NCBI GenBank assembly: GCA_014323865.1
Contig: JACONG010000017.1
Span: 1-53,226 of the forward strand
Direction of reading: 5' to 3'
Origin: Rhodospirillales bacterium
GTDB lineage: Bacteria > Pseudomonadota > Alphaproteobacteria > SP197
DNA length: 53,226 nt
Shown piece by piece: positions 2,102 to 53,226 of this stretch; position 1 is the first letter of the stretch; every line of letters starts with the position of its first letter. The notes under the pieces were generated by a model. It ran no database searches and was not told the DNA's origin. It saw nothing but the letters and a program-made list of their open reading frames with translations. The position numbers and the translations under genes are program-made.

Positions 2102-4176
2102 CCGACCCCCTCCCCCAGAAGCCCGGCAATCTCGGCTTCCAGTGCCTTCAATGCGGCGTCGATCTCCTCAAGCGGGCGGGGCGGGGTGTATCTGTAGAAG
2201 TAGCGGTTAAAGTTGATCTCATAGCCGACACGCCCGACGCCGCCGTCCTTCGGGTCGGTGTGGGTCTCATCGACCCAGGCATCGGGGACGAAGGGCAGAA
2301 CCTCGCGCTGCATATAGTCGCGCCAGTCCTCGTTCAGGGGCACCCGCTCATGATCGCGCAGGTCGGGGTCGGGTTCGGGATTGCCGTTCCTGTCGGTGCA
2401 GGGCGGGGCGTCGTCGTCGGGTTCGGACAGGGCGGCGAGGATTGCTTTCCTGAGCGGCGCGCCGATCTTCTGCAAACCTGCGCCACGGAGGGCGGCGGAA
2501 AGCGCCTTGTCGAAGGCGTTGCGGTCGCGCCAGCGCTCGCCGGCGGGCAGGCCATGTTGCAAGGCCTCCAGAATGCGGGCCCGGTCGGCGTCGTCGCGGG
2601 CCTGGAAGGGTTTGGCCTCGCGCAGGGTCGCCAACGCCTCAGGCGTGACGGCGAAGGCGCGTTTGAGCGGGCGTTCGACGCGGATTTCGCGATAGCCGAA
2701 GTCGGTCGTGGCGACGATCCTGGACAGGTCGCGCAGGTCGTCAGAGCCCTGGGCGTCATCGTCCCGGACGTCGTCGCGCAGGGCGTCAGAGCCCAGCATG
2801 TCCCTGTAGATGCGGAGGATGTCGGCGCAGGCTTCGAGCGGGATTTCGCGGCGTTTGGAGCCGAGGGACTTGCGCAGGGGCTTCCAGAACCGTTCGCCGC
2901 TGGCGTCGATCAGCTGCACCCTGTCGCGCCGGGCGGGGGCCTTGCGGTTGGTGAGCAGCCAGACAAAGGTCTGGATGCCGGTGTTGTAGAAGAGATCGGT
3001 GGGCAGGGCGACGATTGCCTCGACCCAGTCGTTTTCGAGCATCCAGCGGCGGATCTCGCTCTCGCCCGATCCGGCAGCGCCGGTGAAGAGCGGCGATCCG
3101 TTCATGACGATGCCGATGCGCGAGCCCTGTTCGTCGTCGCGCATTCTGGCAATCATGTGCTGGAGGAAGAGCAACTGGCCATCGGAGATGCGCGGCAGGC
3201 CTGCGCCGAAGCGGCCGGACATGCCGTCGTTCTCGGCCTCGGCCCTGATCGGGTCGGCGTATTTCTTCCAGTCCACGCCGTAGGGCGGGTTGGACAGCAT
3301 GTAGTGGAAGCGTCCGGTCGGGTGGGCGTCGCGGGTCAGGGTGTTGCCGAAGGCGATGTTCTCCGGGTCGTGGCCGGTCACCAGCATGTCGGATTTGCAG
3401 ATCGCGAAGGATTCGGGGTTGAGTTCCTGGCCGAAGAGTTCGACGCGGATGTCGGGGTTCTGCGCCTTCATCTCCATCTCGGCGATGGACAACATGCCGC
3501 CGGTGCCGGCGGCGGGATCGTATATCCGGCGAATGACGCCCGATCCTCTGAGCGCGTCCGTGTCGTTGGCCAGCAGCAGCGCGACGATGAGGCGGATGAC
3601 CTCGCGCGGGGTGTAGTGTTCGCCCGCCGTCTCGTTCGAGATTTCCGAGAAGCGGCGGATGAGGTCCTCGAACAGATGGCCCATCGCAAGGTTCGGGACG
3701 GTATCGGGGTTGAGGTCGATGCGGCTGAAGGCGTCGAAGACCTGCCAGAGCAGGCCGGCGTCGTCGAGGCGCTTGAGCTGGGTGGGGAACTGGAACTTCT
3801 CGTGGAAGATATCGCGGATGTTGTCGGAGAATCCGGCGATGTAATCGGTCAGGTTGTCGTGGATGTTCTCCGCGTCCTGCTGCCTGAGCGTGGCGAAGGT
3901 GAAGCGGGACAGGTTGTAGAGACCGATGCCCTACCCGGCGGCCTGCCCGGCGGCCTGAAGAAGCGCGATGTCGCGTGCCCGGTCGTCCAGGTGGGCGGGA
4001 AGGGTTTTCGCCATCGCCAGAACGGCGGGTTTGGTCGGCTCAAGGAGGACGTCGAGACGACGCAGCACGACGAACGGCAGGATGACCTTGCCATACTCGG
4101 ACTGCTTGAAGTCGCCGCGAAGACGCTCGGCGATGGACCAGACGAACGCGCCGAGCGATTTGATGTCTGTGCTCAT
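2098..4176 (-). pseudogene. hsdM: Type I DNA methyltransferase subunit HsdM with an in-frame amber codon
   Basis: Read as one frame from the ATG at 4176, this is a 692-codon adenine methyltransferase of a type I system, interrupted by TAG at 3933-3931 (about codon 82). The first part (MSTDIKSLGAFVWSIAERLR...) is the HsdM N-terminal helical domain. After the stop the same frame continues with LYNLSRFTFATL, the SAM-binding motif DPAAGTGGM (near 3510) and the catalytic NPPYG (near 3290). No frameshift is needed, so a single nonsense codon separates the halves. Just upstream of it is a 12-bp tandem duplication. A shorter protein from an internal ATG at 3684 would keep the catalytic core but lose about 164 residues. 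The methylase is probably off or truncated unless the amber codon is read through or is an assembly error. Confidence 0.8.
3934..3957. repeat. 12-bp tandem duplication inside hsdM next to the amber codon
   Basis: CCCGGCGGCCTG occurs twice head to tail and ends directly against the CTA (TAG on the minus strand) at 3931-3933. In the protein it reads AAGQAAG followed by stop, where HsdM relatives usually have a shorter AAGQ-x-FYN stretch. The in-frame duplication looks like slipped-strand mispairing and marks this spot as locally unstable. Confidence 0.75.
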
Positions 4177-45120: not shown

Positions 45121-47649
45121 CTAGTGCTTGCCGGCCAGGACGATATCCGTGGCCTCGGCCGTCGCCAGCGTGAGCGCGCGCATGTCTTCGGGCTCGAGGT
45201 TGTGGAGATTGGTCTTTCCGGTACAGCGCGCCATCATCGACGCTTCGCCCAAGGCCGACTTCAGGATGTTGGCCACGGCATGGCCGCGCTCATCCTCGCT
45301 CAGGTCCGGAGCAAAGACGAGAGCATGATCGCCGATGATCTCACCACCGGCCACGAAGGCCACGGTCATGCCGAACACCAGCGATTTCGAGCCCATGCCA
45401 ATCAGCTTGGCCGCGTCGGTGCCCGACCGAATCCCGCCGAACCACAGGAGGTCGATCTCCTCCTCCTTGTTCAGGCGGCGAAGGATGCGGATGGCATCGC
45501 GCATGAGCGAAAGATCGGGCGGGCCGGCAAGCTCCGGCCAGTCGCGACCGACCGCCGCACTACCGTTGAGCAGCAGAACGTCGAAGCCGTTGTCAAGGCC
45601 GAACACGATGGCCTTTTCGAGCGCCTCGGCATGGGACACCGAGAGGCCAAGAAGCTGGTCGTCGTGATGGCGCCTGATATCGCCGGGTGCCGCGAAACGC
45701 GGCCCGACAACATGGATCAGGCCGGCCGCCTCGGCGTCGGACGCGATCTGACCGGGGATGACAAGCTGCAGCCAGGGTACGTTGTCGCCGATCGGCTGGA
45801 CGCCGATGTAGCCGGCCGCACCGGCCTCCAGACCCTTCGCGATCCCGGCCTTCACATCTGCCGGCGCGTTGTCGAAACCGGTGGCGAAGAAGGGTTGGGC
45901 GATCTCCATGCGGCCGAATCCGAGATCGGTCGCCACCTTGCAGGCTTCGCGATAGGGATCAATCACCAGACGCGACAGGTTGGCCGGCAGAAAGACCAGA
46001 TCATCGACCGTAGCCGGGCGTTGCTCCGGGAAGGGATTCTCGCGCGGACGCAACCTTTTGGCGAGCATCTTTGCCTGACGGGCCACATCGGTCCTGTCCA
46101 TCCGCGCCATCAGGAAGATGTCCTCGCGGTTCTTCACCGAGTAGTCGGCGGAACCGGTTTCGGCATCGCAACGGTAGCAGCGGGCGGCCTCGTTGCGCGC
46201 CTCCTCCCAAGTGTAGGTCGACTCGATCTCCGGGAACTCGATGGGGTTCTCGCCGACACCATGGAACGGCGGGTGGTGCAGCCCGAACTTCTCCCAGTTG
46301 AGGTCCTGCGCCACCGGCACCCGGCGCGTGCGCCACGGCGTGCGGTAGGACACCGGCACCTCGTTACCCTCAAGGAACGACTTCACGTAGTAGGCTAGGC
46401 GCTGGCCGTGGCTCATGGCCATGACGATCGTGGAGCCGCCGAACGCACCGTCTCCGGCCGCAAAGACCTTGGGATCGTCCGTCCGCATTGTCTCCCAGGA
46501 CGTGTTGACGCGGTCCGAACCCATCAGGGTACCGGTTTCGACGTCGTCGCAGGCGCTAAACTGGCCAACCGCCGCGATCACCATGCCGCAATCGATATCA
46601 TGCACCGACCCGGCAATCGGCTCGGGCCGGCGGCGGCCTTCCTCGTCGGGCTCGCCCAGTCCGGTCTTCACGCAGCGCAGCTTCAGGCTGTCGTCACCCG
46701 CATCAATGATCTCGACCTGTTGGGTGTTGTAGACGAACTCAATGCCTTCCTCGATCGCGCCCTCAAGCTCGATCTTGCGCGCCGGGATCTCGTCGGGACC
46801 GCGACGGTACACAACCTTGACGTGTTCACAGCCCGGCAGGCGAAGGGCAGCGCGGCAAGCGTCCATGGCGACGTCACCGCCGCCGATCACAACGACCTCG
46901 CGCGGCATCTGCGGGCGTTCGCCGTCGTTCACACGGCGCAGGAACTCGACGCCGTCGATCACGCGCGCGTCGTCCTCGCCGGGGATGCCCATTTTCTTGC
47001 CCCACCAGGAGCCGATGGTCAGGCAGACCGCGTCGTGCCGCTCCTTCAGCTGCTGCAGGGTGACATCGCGACCGAGTGCGGTGTTGGTGTGGATCGTGAG
47101 ACCCGGACAGCGAGCGACGAGCCGGCCCATATCCTCGTTGATGATGCCGGGCGGCAGACGGAAAGCCGGAATGCCCCAGATCATCATGCCGCCGGCCTTG
47201 TCGGTCATCTCGTAGACGTCGATCTTGAAACCCGCGACAGCAAGATCGTGGGCGGCGACGAGGCCGGCGGGGCCAGCACCGACAATGCCGACGCTCTGCT
47301 CGCGCGTGACCGGTGCCACTTCAGGCTTCCAGCTGACGCCGAGCTTGTCCATGACGAACCGCTTGAGATTGCGGATCTGGAGCGGACCGTCGCTTGCCGC
47401 ACGGCGGCAGGCCGGCTCGCAAGGCGCATCACAGACACGGCCGCAGATCGAGCTGAACGGGTTGGTCGCCGTGATCGCCTCGAAGGCTTCGTCGAACTTG
47501 CCTTCCCATATGTAGCCGATATAGCTCGGCGCATCGGTGCCGACCGGGCAGGCAATCTGGCATGGCGCTGCCACATAGTGCTTGTCATTGGTGTCGTCGG
47601 CGAGTTCGGGCGGCAGAAGGTTCGCGCCGCTATCGGTGCTCATGGCCAT
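45121..47649 (-). CDS. Glutamate synthase-like FAD/Fe-S oxidoreductase with C-terminal FMN-type domain
   Basis: 842 residues. Residues 1-110 hold two Fe-S cysteine sets (CQIACPVGTDAPSY and CGRVCDAPCEPACRR), as in the GltD/DPYD family. The FAD site is VGIVGAGPAGLVAAHDLA and the NAD(P) site VVVIGGGDVAMDACRAALRL. After about residue 540 comes a second region with GGIRSGTDAAKLIGMGSKSL and MMARCTGKTNLHNLEPEDMR, which resembles the second half of a glutamate synthase FMN barrel. It probably feeds electrons to the partner protein encoded 10 bp upstream. The fusion makes it much longer than GltD (about 470). Confidence 0.85.
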   Translation of the reverse strand: MAMSTDSGANLLPPELADDTNDKHYVAAPCQIACPVGTDAPSYIGYIWEGKFDEAFEAITATNPFSSICGRVCDAPCEPACRRAASDGPLQIRNLKRFVMDKLGVSWKPEVAPVTREQSVGIVGAGPAGLVAAHDLAVAGFKIDVYEMTDKAGGMMIWGIPAFRLPPGIINEDMGRLVARCPGLTIHTNTALGRDVTLQQLKERHDAVCLTIGSWWGKKMGIPGEDDARVIDGVEFLRRVNDGERPQMPREVVVIGGGDVAMDACRAALRLPGCEHVKVVYRRGPDEIPARKIELEGAIEEGIEFVYNTQQVEIIDAGDDSLKLRCVKTGLGEPDEEGRRRPEPIAGSVHDIDCGMVIAAVGQFSACDDVETGTLMGSDRVNTSWETMRTDDPKVFAAGDGAFGGSTIVMAMSHGQRLAYYVKSFLEGNEVPVSYRTPWRTRRVPVAQDLNWEKFGLHHPPFHGVGENPIEFPEIESTYTWEEARNEAARCYRCDAETGSADYSVKNREDIFLMARMDRTDVARQAKMLAKRLRPRENPFPEQRPATVDDLVFLPANLSRLVIDPYREACKVATDLGFGRMEIAQPFFATGFDNAPADVKAGIAKGLEAGAAGYIGVQPIGDNVPWLQLVIPGQIASDAEAAGLIHVVGPRFAAPGDIRRHHDDQLLGLSVSHAEALEKAIVFGLDNGFDVLLLNGSAAVGRDWPELAGPPDLSLMRDAIRILRRLNKEEEIDLLWFGGIRSGTDAAKLIGMGSKSLVFGMTVAFVAGGEIIGDHALVFAPDLSEDERGHAVANILKSALGEASMMARCTGKTNLHNLEPEDMRALTLATAEATDIVLAGKH

Positions 47650-47659
47650 GGTTGTCTTC

Positions 47660-49612
47660 CTAACCAGCAGCCTGGAACAGCTCTTCGTTCCGGCGTTCCG
47701 GTTCGTAGGGCAGGCCGGTGATTTCGGCCGCCTCGGGGGTCAGTGCCACGAGGTCGTCGCGGCCAAGCTGACGGACATCATTGTGTCCGAGCGCCTTGGT
47801 AATCGCAGCAATCTGCCAACGAACACTTTCGAGGAAGGTGTAGATGTGTTGGGCTTCAACCTTCGACTTGTAGCGCGCCTCGTGTTCGGGATCCTGGGTG
47901 GCGATACCCGTGACGCATTGCCCGACATGGCACTGCATGCAGGCGATGCAGCCGCCGGCAATGATCGCCGCGGTGCCCAGCGCGATGGCATCGGCACCCA
48001 GGCACATGCCCTTCACCGCATCAATGCCGTCGCGCAGGCCGCCCATCAGGACAAGTTCGATGTCGTCACGGCGGCCGATCGACGCCAACGCGGTTTCAGC
48101 CTCGCAGATCGCCGAGATCGTCGGGATACCGACATACTCCATGACTTCCGCGCCACCGGCGCCGGTCGAGCCCTGCATGCCGTCGAGTTCGACAAAGTCG
48201 AAGCCGTCCTTCACAGCGATCCTGATGTCGTCGTGGATACGACCCGCGCCCAGCTTCACGCTGACCGGCAGGCGATAGCCGGTGGCCTCGCGCAGCTCCT
48301 CCACCTTGATGACGAGGTCATCGGCACCGAGGATGTCGGGATGGCGGGAGGGTGAGCGCAGGTCAATGCCCGCGGGAATTCCGCGGATTTCGGCCAGATC
48401 CTTGGTCACCTTCTTGGCCATGAGCTGGCCGCCGAAGCCCGGCTTCGCACCTTGGGAGATGTAAATCTCAAGCCCGTCGGCGCGGTTCATGTCGTGGATG
48501 TTCCAGCCCAGGCGGCCGCCCAGCATCTGGAAGATCAATTGGCCGGCAGCATCACGCTGGGCGTCGCTCATGCCGCCCTCACCCGTATTCTCGGCAATGC
48601 CCGCCATACCCGAGGCGATCGCAATGGCCTGCTTGGCAGAGCGCGACAGTGCGCCATAGCTCATGGGCGCGATCAGCACCGGCATGGTGAGATCGAGCGG
48701 GTTGGCACCGTTCTTGCCACCTATCCTGGTGTGCATTTTGACATCGCTGACGGGATCGTCGCCGATCGCCGCCATGGTGATGTCCTTGCGGAAAGCCAGA
48801 TCGGAAAGATGCGGCAGCTCGCGGGCGCCACCGTAGCCGCGCACACGGTACCGACCGATCTGCGACTTGATGTAGACGTCTTCCTGGATCTTGTGATTCC
48901 AGTAGTCGCTCTCGCCGGAGAAATTGAAGTACGGGATCGAGCGGACCTGGCGCTCGGCGGTGCCGTAGCGCAGCTTCTTGCCCGCATTCACGACCTTGCG
49001 GAACGTGTTCCTGAAGGGAATCTCGTAGCGATCAAGAAACTCCATGACCTCGTCGATCTCGGCGGAGTCGGTATCGACGACTTCGGCGTCCGAACCCAGG
49101 GACTGGAGCTCACCGCCAAGGAAGATCTCGCCGCCGGTCATATCCTCACCGAGACGCTCGCCCGACTGGCCGAGAATGATTATGCGGCCGCCGTACATCA
49201 TGTAACCCGCCATGAAGTTGGCGTTGCCACAGCACAGCAGCGTGCCCTTCTTCATGACCTGACCGGCCCGGGAGCCCATGTTGCCCTTGATAACCAGGTC
49301 GGCGCCACGGATGGCGACACCGGCGATCGCACCGGCGTTGCCACCGACCACGACGGAGCCGCGGTACATGTTGTCGGCCACGCCCCAACCCACGTTGCTC
49401 TCGACGTGGAAGCGTGGTGTGTCGGTGAGACCCGCACAAAAATATCCGGCCGAGCCACGGATGTGGATGTCGACCGGATGGATGACACCGACGCCGATAT
49501 GGTGGCGTGCGTCGGGGTTCAGGACCTCAATGCTCTCGCCGTCGGCGGCAGCTTTGCGTATCTCCTCGTTGACGTCGCGGGTTTCGCGACCGCTCAGATC
49601 GATCGTGACCAT
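47660..49612 (-). CDS. Glutamate synthase-like protein: GXGXG domain fused to FMN-binding domain (MgsB-MgsC-like)
   Basis: 650 residues. The N-terminal about 215 residues form the GXGXG beta-helix (HIRGSAGYFCAGLT, then VVGGNAGAIAGVAI and LIQ-type turns). From about 240 to 640 lies the glutamate synthase FMN barrel with LIAPMSYGALSRSAKQAIAI, ENTGEGGMS, DGMQGSTGAGG and a cysteine cluster CIACMQCHVGQCVTGIATQD, the 3Fe-4S site. In GltB both are in one chain with the amidotransferase; in N-methylglutamate synthase (mgsABC) and the rhizobial glx genes they are separate. Here two parts are fused and the amidotransferase is separate. The product could be glutamate, N-methylglutamate or another amino-transfer product. 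Confidence 0.85.
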   Translation of the reverse strand: MVTIDLSGRETRDVNEEIRKAAADGESIEVLNPDARHHIGVGVIHPVDIHIRGSAGYFCAGLTDTPRFHVESNVGWGVADNMYRGSVVVGGNAGAIAGVAIRGADLVIKGNMGSRAGQVMKKGTLLCCGNANFMAGYMMYGGRIIILGQSGERLGEDMTGGEIFLGGELQSLGSDAEVVDTDSAEIDEVMEFLDRYEIPFRNTFRKVVNAGKKLRYGTAERQVRSIPYFNFSGESDYWNHKIQEDVYIKSQIGRYRVRGYGGARELPHLSDLAFRKDITMAAIGDDPVSDVKMHTRIGGKNGANPLDLTMPVLIAPMSYGALSRSAKQAIAIASGMAGIAENTGEGGMSDAQRDAAGQLIFQMLGGRLGWNIHDMNRADGLEIYISQGAKPGFGGQLMAKKVTKDLAEIRGIPAGIDLRSPSRHPDILGADDLVIKVEELREATGYRLPVSVKLGAGRIHDDIRIAVKDGFDFVELDGMQGSTGAGGAEVMEYVGIPTISAICEAETALASIGRRDDIELVLMGGLRDGIDAVKGMCLGADAIALGTAAIIAGGCIACMQCHVGQCVTGIATQDPEHEARYKSKVEAQHIYTFLESVRWQIAAITKALGHNDVRQLGRDDLVALTPEAAEITGLPYEPERRNEELFQAAG

Positions 49613-50505
49613 GTGTTGTAACTTCCCGGCGGGGGTTCACGGGTGTCAAGCGCACGGCCGGGGAACAGCCGATTGAGCGACACCTCTTCGGAGGCGATGG
49701 CAATCAGGTCGTCGTTTTCGAACATGATCATCGGTTTGGCGGCCAGCTGGTCCTTGGCATAGCCAATCTCGTCCCTGGTCGAGACCAGGAACGAGAAGGT
49801 GCCATCCATGTCGCCGATCGAGCTGGCGAGCGCATCGTTGAGGGCGACGCCCTGGCTCATCTTGTCGGCGAGATAGACCGCGATCAGTTCGCTGTCGTTG
49901 TCGGTGACGAACTCGAAGCCACGGCGCTCCAGGCGGCGACGCATCTTCCAGTAGTTCGTGATCTGGCCGTTGTGAACGATCGCCACGTCCGAAAAGCCGG
50001 TTGCCCAGAAGGGGTGCGAAGCCTCGGGCTCGACGTCGGACTCCGTGGCAAGCCGAACATGTCCCAGGCCATGGCTGCCCTTGAAGACGTGGACGTCATA
50101 GACGTCGTCGACATCGTGGGCGCCACCGACATCCTTGACGATCTCGAGGCTCTCGCCGATCGAGAGCACCTTGGCGGCATGTTCGATGGCGTAGGAGAAC
50201 TTCTGCAGATCGCCGCCGAAACGCACGATCGTGCGATAGCTGCCGCCGATCCGCTCGTCCTCGACGATCTCCGCACCGTGCTGGGCGAAGACCTCCCTGA
50301 GCCGAGCGATGGCGTCGCCGGCCTCGTTGTCGGTGCCGACATAGAAGCGCAGCTTGAGCTGGCCCTGGGTGTCGTCACCGTAGAGCGCGAAGCCCGTGGA
50401 GTCGGGACCACGATGCTGACACCCGTCCAGCATGTCGACCAGAGCGCGACCGGTGTCGATCTCGACGCCGTCGCGCTTCAGCAAAATGCCTGCGATTCCG
50501 CACAT
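49594..50505 (-). CDS. Class II glutamine amidotransferase (GltB/MgsA-like)
   Basis: 303 residues, starting MCGIAGILLKRDGVEI, so Cys2 becomes the N-terminal nucleophile after Met removal. Other Ntn-type motifs are CQHRGPDSTGFALYG, GHVRLATES, AIVHNGQITNYWKMR and TDNDSELIAVYLAD. It releases ammonia from glutamine. ATG 50505 is chosen so that cysteine is residue 2. The gene overlaps the GXGXG-FMN gene by 19 bp and is first in the three-gene operon, which suggests the three products assemble to carry ammonia to the FMN site. Confidence 0.9.
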   Translation of the reverse strand: MCGIAGILLKRDGVEIDTGRALVDMLDGCQHRGPDSTGFALYGDDTQGQLKLRFYVGTDNEAGDAIARLREVFAQHGAEIVEDERIGGSYRTIVRFGGDLQKFSYAIEHAAKVLSIGESLEIVKDVGGAHDVDDVYDVHVFKGSHGLGHVRLATESDVEPEASHPFWATGFSDVAIVHNGQITNYWKMRRRLERRGFEFVTDNDSELIAVYLADKMSQGVALNDALASSIGDMDGTFSFLVSTRDEIGYAKDQLAAKPMIMFENDDLIAIASEEVSLNRLFPGRALDTREPPPGSYNTWSRSI

Positions 50506-51705: not shown

Positions 51706-53226
51706 ATGGACACGCGGAAATCCGGGGCGCGGGACGAAAATGGATCGACACCGCTGCACTTGGCGGCGCGTTACGGCACAGCAGAGACCATGCAGGCTCT
51801 GATCGACGCAGGGGCCAACATCGGGGCGCGGGACGAGCTCGGAAATACACCGCTGCACAGGGCGGCGCGGTGGGGCAAAGCGGAGACCGTGCAGGCCCTG
51901 ATCGACGCTGGGGCCGACATCGGAGCGCGGAACAGCATCGGATGGACACCGCTGCACAGGGCGGCGATTGGCGACACAGCGGAGACCGTGAAGGCTCTGA
52001 TCGACGCTGGGGCAGGTATCGAGGCGCGGGCCGGAAACGGATGGACACCGCTGCTCTTGGCGGCGCGTTACGGCACAGCAGAGACCGTGCAGGCCCTGAT
52101 CGACGCAGGGGCCAACATCGAGGCGCGGATCGTAGACGAATGGACACCGCTGCTCTTGGCGGCGCGTTACGGCACAGCAGAGACCGTGCAGGCCCTGATC
52201 GACGCAGGGGCAGATATCAAGGCGCGGGACAAAGGCGGATCGACACCGCTGCTCTTGGCGGCGCGTTACGGCACAGCAGAGACCGTGAAGGCCCTGATCG
52301 ACGCCGGGGCCGACATCGAGGCGCAGGACGAAGACGGATTGACACCGCTGCAGTTGGCGGCGGGTCTCGGCAAAGCGGAAACCGTGAAGGCACTGATCGA
52401 CGCTGGGGCCAACATCGGGGCACGGCACATAGGCGGACAGACACCGCTGCACTGGGCGGCGGATGGCGGCAAAGCGGAGACCGTGAAGGCACTGATCGAT
52501 GCCGGGGCTGACATCGAAGCGCGGGACGAAGGCGGAGGGACACCGCTGCACGGGGCGGCGCGTCACGGCACAGCGGAGACCGTGAAGGCACTGATCGACG
52601 CTGGGGCCAACATCGAGGCGGGGGCCGAAAGCGGATGGACACCGCTGCACGCGGCGGCGGGTCTCGGCACAGCGGAGAGCGTGCAGGCCCTGATCGACGC
52701 AGGGGCTGACACCGAGGCGCGGACCGACAACGGAGCGACGCCGCTGCACGTGGCGGCGGGTCACGGCACGGCAGAGACCGTGAAGGCCCTGATCGACGCA
52801 GGGGCCGATATCGAGGCGCGGGACGAAGGCGGAGGGACACCGCTGCACGTGGCGGCGGGTCACGGCACAGCGGAGACCGTGAAGGCCCTGATCGACGCAG
52901 GGGCTGACACCGAGGCGCGGACCGACAGCGGAGCGACGCCGCTGCACGTGGCGGCGGGTCACGGCACGGCAGAGACCGTGCAGGCCCTGATCGACGCCGG
53001 GGCCGATATCAAGGCGCGGGCCGAAGGCGGAGAGACACCGCTGCACGTGGCGGCGCTTGGCGTTACAGAGGAGACCGTGAAGGCCCTGATCGACGCCGGG
53101 GCCAACATCGGGGCGCGGGACGAACTCGGAAATACACCGCTGCACTGGGCGGCGCGTTTCGGCACAGCGGAGACCGTGGAGACCCTGATCGCTACCGGGG
53201 CCAACATCGGGGCCCGGGCCGGAGAC
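51706..53226 (+). CDS. Ankyrin-repeat protein with near-identical repeats, cut by window edge
   Basis: The frame opens at ATG 51706 and runs to the window end for 507 codons without a stop. It consists of about fifteen 33-residue ankyrin repeats of the form TPLHxAAxxGTAETVxALID followed by AGADIEARD-G. At DNA level the 99-bp units are strikingly alike (gagaccgtgaaggccctgat and gacgc(a/c)ggggccgacatc recur almost unchanged). There is no signal peptide or membrane segment in the visible part; the N-terminus goes straight into the repeats. Ankyrin proteins bind other proteins; in bacteria many are secreted or host-directed, but nothing here shows that. The high identity points to recent expansion or homogenisation. 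Confidence 0.93.
   Translation, partial: MDTRKSGARDENGSTPLHLAARYGTAETMQALIDAGANIGARDELGNTPLHRAARWGKAETVQALIDAGADIGARNSIGWTPLHRAAIGDTAETVKALIDAGAGIEARAGNGWTPLLLAARYGTAETVQALIDAGANIEARIVDEWTPLLLAARYGTAETVQALIDAGADIKARDKGGSTPLLLAARYGTAETVKALIDAGADIEAQDEDGLTPLQLAAGLGKAETVKALIDAGANIGARHIGGQTPLHWAADGGKAETVKALIDAGADIEARDEGGGTPLHGAARHGTAETVKALIDAGANIEAGAESGWTPLHAAAGLGTAESVQALIDAGADTEARTDNGATPLHVAAGHGTAETVKALIDAGADIEARDEGGGTPLHVAAGHGTAETVKALIDAGADTEARTDSGATPLHVAAGHGTAETVQALIDAGADIKARAEGGETPLHVAALGVTEETVKALIDAGANIGARDELGNTPLHWAARFGTAETVETLIATGANIGARAGD

Follow-up and report, generated by a model that had tools for sequence, protein, structure and literature searches.

N-methylglutamate synthase (MgsABC/GlxBCD), described from R. 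etli p42e, M. extorquens and M. universalis, consists of a class-II amidotransferase, a GXGXG part and a flavin mononucleotide (FMN) part that are encoded together as three separate subunits, and its redox cofactors have been stated to be unknown (PMC6237917). NADPH-dependent glutamate synthase (GltBD) has the same catalytic parts in the single chain of GltB, in the order amidotransferase-FMN-GXGXG, together with the NAD(P)H reductase GltD. Dihydropyrimidine dehydrogenase (DPD) combines a GltD-like module and, behind it, an FMN-type barrel in a single polypeptide. Here we analyse a 53,226-nt stretch of DNA from a Rhodospirillales bacterium (contig JACONG010000017.1, positions 1 to 53,226; hereafter the window), in which a minus-strand operon of three consecutive genes (50505-45121) encodes a related set of proteins with two FMN-type barrels, FMN1 and FMN2. 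As judged from sequence and genome context, the product of this dual-barrel set is probably an alternative N-methylglutamate synthase and a partner of gamma-glutamylmethylamide synthetase (GmaS). The features of the set are as follows.

49594..50505, minus strand: class-II glutamine amidotransferase subunit, MgsA/GlxB-like, 303 amino acids (aa), with an MCGIAGI start and HRGPDS and HNGQITNY motifs.
47660..49612, minus strand: GXGXG-FMN1 fusion, MgsB+MgsC-like, 650 aa, with GXGXG at residues 36-171 (49507-49100) and the catalytic FMN barrel at residues 216-650.
47915..47950, minus strand: Fe-S motif of FMN1, CIACMQCHVGQC, residues 555-566.
45121..47649, minus strand: 842-aa fusion of a GltD-like reductase with a second Glu_synthase barrel (FMN2), eroded at its catalytic positions.
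47407..47562, minus strand: Fer4_20 cysteine-rich region, residues 30-81, for GltD-type [4Fe-4S] clusters; the same module occurs in GltD, NfnB and DPD.
46369..47298, minus strand: FAD/NAD(P)H module, residues 118-427, matched by Pyr_redox_2 (120-415) and GltD-like models.
46138..46185, minus strand: linker motif ARCYRCDAETGSADYS, residues 489-504, whose ETG part is invariant, also in fusions that lack GltD.
45124..46029, minus strand: FMN2 barrel, residues 541-842, without Fe-S cysteines and without the catalytic Gln, Lys and Glu.
45415-45438, minus strand: FMN-phosphate loop GGIRSGTD of FMN2, retained.
45178-45225, minus strand: tail of FMN2, CTGKTNLHNLEPEDMR.

The amidotransferase start is best placed at the ATG at 50505, which has GGAGG upstream and puts the Cys of MCGIAGI right after the initiator Met. 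The amidotransferase and GXGXG-FMN1 genes overlap by 19 nt, and a 10-nt gap separates the latter from the gene for the 842-aa protein. Pfam assigns the amidotransferase to GATase_6/7, finds GXGXG (36-171, E 2.4e-13) and then Glu_synthase (303-611, E 1.9e-91) in the 650-aa protein, and finds Fer4_20 (28-102), Pyr_redox_2 (120-415) and, beyond residue 540, a weak Glu_synthase match (703-768, E 0.013) in the 842-aa protein. Residues 27-500 of the latter are grouped with GltD-like proteins by NCBIfam, and the nearest solved structures for this part are NfnABC/StnABC subunits, NfnB, GltD and DPD. A preliminary description had read the locus as a reshuffled glutamate synthase with a separate amidotransferase, GXGXG placed before FMN in a fusion, and a second barrel-like C-terminus on the 842-aa protein; coordinates and Pfam anatomy bear out the first part, and the second is upheld by the alignments, conservation and structural matches given below. 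Like MgsABC, the set encodes amidotransferase, GXGXG and FMN parts together; it differs in joining the MgsB and MgsC counterparts in one chain and in having an additional GltD-FMN2 protein. It resembles GltBD in its catalytic parts, in the Fe-S cysteines on the FMN barrel and in a GltD-like NAD(P)H reductase with FAD and a Cys-rich Fe-S domain, and differs in the separate amidotransferase, in the order of GXGXG and FMN and in the second barrel borne by the GltD part. DPD has an active barrel of the dihydroorotate-dehydrogenase type and, after it, a ferredoxin domain. FMN2, by contrast, is related to GlxD and lacks catalytic residues, and the 842-aa protein has no ferredoxin domain at its end.

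For genome context, we used as reference the R. etli p42e operon, which contains soxA/D/B (mgd-like), the amidotransferase, GXGXG and FMN protein genes, glnT (gmaS), purU, folD and a dmmA-family gene, and counted canonical mgsC at at least 70% identity. Among 142 sampled Alphaproteobacteria, gmaS of the R. etli glnT type occurs in 20, canonical mgsC in 15 and the dual-barrel set in 6. All 6 set carriers have gmaS, against the background of 20/142 (p 3.8e-6, kinship ignored), and the set is present in 5 of the 6 gmaS genomes without canonical mgsC and in 1 of the 14 with it (p 0.002, kinship ignored). Close kin show the same pattern: gmaS is found in 16/16 genomes of the window's family and the 842-aa protein in 14 of them (60-84% identity in relatives), so that the set is not an isolated oddity. 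The two exceptions are a genome with a canonical mgsABC-gmaS operon, in which the 842-aa gene is reduced to a broken C-terminal (FMN2) scrap (G012), and a fragmented assembly with neither canonical mgsABC nor the set (G009).

As with MgsABC/GlxBCD, the set is associated with gmaS and soxBDAG/mgd-like genes, and an XRE-cupin-type regulator is present in many loci. The gmaS gene directly adjoins the set in L010, L011, L012, L038, G093, G134 and G136 (G, C and L numbers are our handles for genomes, contigs and loci), and G095 has a gmaS-soxBDAG operon without mgsABC, with the set on another contig. In Desulfobacterota, the set stands together with GS-III (GS, glutamine synthetase) and soxBA(G)/mgd-like genes in L019, L021, L023, L024, L032 and L033, and near Amt, XRE-cupin regulators or MttB-like/corrinoid/methyltransferase (MeTr) genes in other loci; these neighbour names were read from sequence by eye, except for the NCBIfam-scanned GS, SoxA and SoxB. 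The best PDB match of the L024 GS is a ‘glutamate--methylamine ligase’ (9qur, 9e-115). The window genome has a gmaS at C16:38870-40252 (62% identity to R. etli glnT; match to the solved RhGmaS at 6.8e-181) and two soxBDAG/mgd-like sets, on C10 and C16, with SoxD present twice and SoxB homologues alongside. Genes of N-methylglutamate dehydrogenase type (soxBDAG/mgd) thus accompany the set, although they may instead encode sarcosine oxidase. GmaS differs from GS at the Glu-flap position, where Trp replaces the ammonia-binding Glu (PMC7948447). All partner GS examined have Trp at this position, as do other GS-like paralogues of the window genome, so that the residue separates them from GlnA and does not discriminate among paralogues.

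Among the proteins compared, the amidotransferase and FMN1 are most similar to GlxB and GlxD of Thermincola. The amidotransferase shares 46% identity with Thermincola GlxB, 43% with Glx2B of the window genome and 35% with R. etli MgsA; for FMN1 the values are 46% with Thermincola GlxD, 40% with Glx2D of the window genome, 39% with R. etli MgsC and 32% with GltB. In a tree from which FMN2 was excluded, all 16 FMN1 domains sampled group in one clade (99/100), canonical MgsC in a separate one (100/100) and the second GlxD type in a third, and GltB lies far off, the last placement being unsure with a single long-branched GltB. Two results that would have spoken against the preliminary description, a position of the set inside ordinary glutamate synthases and a genome devoid of methylamine genes, are not seen. 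In function, the set is most likely an N-methylglutamate synthase; we do not class it as MgsABC, because neither its subunit structure nor its clade is that of MgsABC.

The complete part list, comprising an amidotransferase, GXGXG, an FMN barrel with Fe-S cysteines and a GltD-like reductase, would also suit an extra NAD(P)H-dependent glutamate synthase with rearranged domains that converts glutamine and 2-oxoglutarate to two glutamates, and Amt transporters flank the set in several Desulfobacterota and family loci. We consider this unlikely, since the genome encodes GltB (1512 aa) and GltD as well, since FMN1 forms a clade of its own and is closer to GlxD/MgsC types (39-46%) than to GltB, and since such an enzyme leaves the co-occurrence with gmaS and the reciprocity with mgsABC unexplained.

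For the alternative N-methylglutamate synthase, we infer the substrate, the electron route and the role of FMN2 as follows. GmaS would convert methylamine and glutamate to gamma-glutamylmethylamide, from which the amidotransferase subunit would release glutamate and methylamine. The methylamine would be handed to the FMN1 site of the GXGXG-FMN subunit and condense there with 2-oxoglutarate, and the resulting imine would be reduced to N-methylglutamate. In contrast to canonical MgsABC, NAD(P)H would supply the electrons, which the 842-aa subunit would pass by way of its GltD-like FAD and [4Fe-4S] clusters to the Fe-S cluster next to FMN1. FMN2 would be an eroded duplicate of a GlxD-type barrel, retained as a docking scaffold and possibly as an FMN-binding relay.

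The Fe-S cysteines of FMN1 and the fused GltD-like module suggest a chain from NAD(P)H to FAD, [4Fe-4S], the FMN1 cluster and FMN1, for which the electron chain of GltS serves as the model (PMC8097209). Four Cys are present at the FMN1 Fe-S motif in 42/42 relatives, while the window genome's own GltB has three there. The motif is missing from nearly all MgsC proteins at least 75% identical to R. etli MgsC and is kept in a few at 71-75%. Since canonical MgsC mostly lacks these cysteines, the canonical synthase and the dual-barrel set probably receive their electrons differently.

FMN2 aligns blockwise with GlxD/MgsC-type FMN domains, with much of the middle absent, and is 41-82% identical across about 300 residues in 30 other loci. 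Its tail, CTGKTNLHNLEPEDMR, is the usual end of GlxD-type FMN domains, the Thermincola GlxD counterpart being CGKTDVHNLEPEDMRALS. An AlphaFold model of FMN2 and the linker has a mean pLDDT of 74 and a pTM of 0.70, with the barrel core mostly above 85, and matches the FMN-dependent TIM barrels of mandelate oxidase, flavocytochrome b2 and type-2 isopentenyl diphosphate isomerase (VIA Z ~18, root-mean-square deviation 3.4-4.8 Å, 218-241 residues aligned), while Azospirillum GltS ranks 38 in Foldseek. By alignment and model, the C-terminal part of the 842-aa protein is a genuine second FMN-type barrel.

Among 41 FMN2 sequences, the Gln and Lys of QGAKPG, the catalytic-loop Glu, the His of RSPxRHxD, the Lys of VSVK and all Fe-S cysteines are essentially gone, and the glycines of the GGxRSG phosphate loop are kept in 41/41. 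The catalytic positions of FMN1 are intact in practically all of 42 sequences, with the Arg of its own GGxRxG loop variable. Among genus members, FMN2 and the GltD part show similar ratios of nonsynonymous to synonymous substitution rates (0.11-0.14 and 0.10-0.13, respectively), which indicates purifying selection; given the FMN2 ratio and positions invariant across phyla, we reject the view that FMN2 is an artefact or a decaying passenger. By its motifs, FMN2 is a maintained, non-catalytic barrel, and it is predicted to bind FMN. Its join to GlxD in a first tree is by a long branch and is not taken as proof of origin. As a separate observation, L136 (G022:C402) contains three FMN2-tail-only copies within 3 kb (206-361, 1932-2090 and 2940-3131; 75-85% identical to the window), in a genome with canonical mgsC and gmaS.

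Beyond the Alphaproteobacteria, the set occurs in Gammaproteobacteria and Desulfobacterota. Desulfobacterota carry it in two forms, one like the window (GXGXG-FMN1 and GltD-FMN2) and one in which a single chain of about 1020 aa has FMN2 directly behind FMN1 and no GltD part (L026-L037), the latter still with an adjoining amidotransferase and GS-III downstream. FMN1 and FMN2 co-occur wherever the contig is long enough to judge, and GltD is not always present; FMN2 is therefore tied to the synthase and not to the reductase. In Thermincola, GlxB, GlxC and GlxD are separate proteins, a further FMN protein is present and FMN2 proper is missing, an arrangement that may picture the ancestral state. 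A search of a plasmid collection with the 842-aa protein gave no record covering 80%, and no paper on the architecture was found among open-licence papers, where absence is weak evidence.

Two further kinds of neighbour adjoin the set. A YbaK-like gene (aminoacyl-tRNA deacylase-like, by eye) lies beside it in the Desulfobacterota loci L019, L024, L026, L027, L029, L032, L033 and L034, and on the opposite strand in a family member (L115:6318-6863), perhaps for editing of mischarged tRNA. Genes for an MttB-like methyltransferase, a corrinoid protein and/or MeTr adjoin it in L015, L018, L025 and L035, which are Desulfobacterota and one contig labelled Spirochaetes.

The window genome has a second glxBCD-type set, near-universal in the family (G012 included), with a DAO-type oxidoreductase and a non-gmaS GS (L107:10383-16561; G000:C16:355.4-361.6k); a Pelagibacter contig (L076) shows the same GS-glxBCD pairing adjoining the canonical set. 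This second set (C16:357-361k) could itself be the synthase and the partner of gmaS, leaving the dual-barrel set to a side pathway: it has the same three parts, its GlxD type keeps the Fe-S cysteines, and its FMN protein, at 52% identity, comes nearer to R. etli MgsC than FMN1 does. That reading appears to us the least probable of those weighed here, because the second set adjoins its own non-gmaS GS (63-72% identity within the clade, 31% to R. etli gmaS), is found in genomes without gmaS (5/14), and does not substitute for missing canonical mgsC (p 0.34 among the 142 Alphaproteobacteria), unlike the dual-barrel set.

Besides this second set, several observations weigh against an N-methylglutamate synthase role for the dual-barrel set. 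FMN1 is just 39% identical to R. etli MgsC, and the gmaS of the window genome is on another contig, outside the operon. G015 and G093 hold both the canonical synthase and the set, G031 has gmaS without either synthase, and the co-occurrence statistics ignore phylogeny. In addition, the Desulfobacterales fusions without the GltD part imply that the NAD(P)H arm is not universal.

Downstream of the set, the window contains three remnants (45055-43825), decayed around intact HIT and PhyH genes.

45045-44862: aldehyde dehydrogenase (ALDH) remnant.
44431-43903: GMC oxidoreductase remnant.
43926-43825, minus strand: remnant of a GS-like protein other than gmaS, comprising its 33-34 C-terminal residues and sharing 79-85% identity with intact relatives; a neighbour, outside the enzyme.

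In a relative (G005, L111), the downstream order is intact, with the set followed by ALDH, HIT, GMC, two GS-like genes and PhyH. The GS remnant, for which gmaS-type queries returned nothing in the window, surfaced only with the intact relatives' own GS as query. These intact GS share 63% identity with the GS that adjoins the other glxBCD set and only about 30% with gmaS, and they belong to the separate ALDH-HIT-GMC-GS-GS-PhyH cluster, so that the remnant is rejected as gmaS. Since the lost GS is of the type paired with the other glxBCD set, its loss is uninformative on the methylamine route. The preliminary description had noticed this remnant and taken it as possibly gmaS, hinting at methylamine or N-methylglutamate chemistry now partly lost. 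The remnant exists, as a tail that is not gmaS; the hint is well supported by gmaS co-occurrence, mgsABC reciprocity and synteny, and not by the remnant; and the supposed loss is contradicted by the intact gmaS and the two soxBDAG/mgd-like sets found in the genome.

The downstream genes also bear on the possibility that the amine used by the set is not methylamine but another one (ethylamine, isopropylamine or an amino alcohol), which would be turned into the corresponding N-substituted glutamate, perhaps together with the GS-like pair, the GMC oxidoreductase and the ALDH of some relatives. Two GS-like genes lie downstream in G005 and G008, ALDH and GMC genes are present in G005/L014, and the characterised RhGmaS accepts ethylamine and propylamine (PMC7948447). 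We give this reading a low probability, as in the window the downstream cluster is degraded but the set remains under selection, as the cluster is not seen in most other set-carrying loci, and as the GS that was lost is not gmaS.

Two side observations concern the genome and the contig at large. The 2.8-Mb window genome (G000) has ten GS-domain matches (nine genes) and 18 GCV_T-domain matches, which suggests heavy use of methylated amines and gamma-glutamyl intermediates. From 51726 to 53218 on the plus strand, to the contig end, a 99-bp unit is repeated in tandem about 15 times in the window; it encodes 33 residues that resemble an ankyrin repeat (ARDESGWTPLHLAARYGTAETVKALIDAGADIE).

The set looks like a previously undescribed second version of the N-methylglutamate-forming enzyme, with an electron supply of its own, driven by NAD(P)H, and a spare barrel that is eroded yet conserved, both foreign to the known enzyme. 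More tentatively, it may represent a second, NAD(P)H-driven and Fe-S-dependent class of N-methylglutamate synthase, found in Alpha- and Gammaproteobacteria and in sulfate-reducing Desulfobacterota, whose duplicated barrel has become an FMN-binding relay or a docking platform for the reductase. On this more tentative view, methylamine use via N-methylglutamate would be a reductive route unlike that of the canonical enzyme, anaerobes included. If the N-methylglutamate synthase assignment is true, the two enzymes for one step would differ exactly in electron supply, so that comparing both makes the question of the redox cofactors testable, and FMN2 would clearly exemplify a barrel that selection maintains although its catalytic residues are lost. 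Methylamine use would further be predicted in Alphaproteobacteria without mgsABC and in sulfate reducers, genomes whose annotation would show only glutamate-synthase-like proteins.

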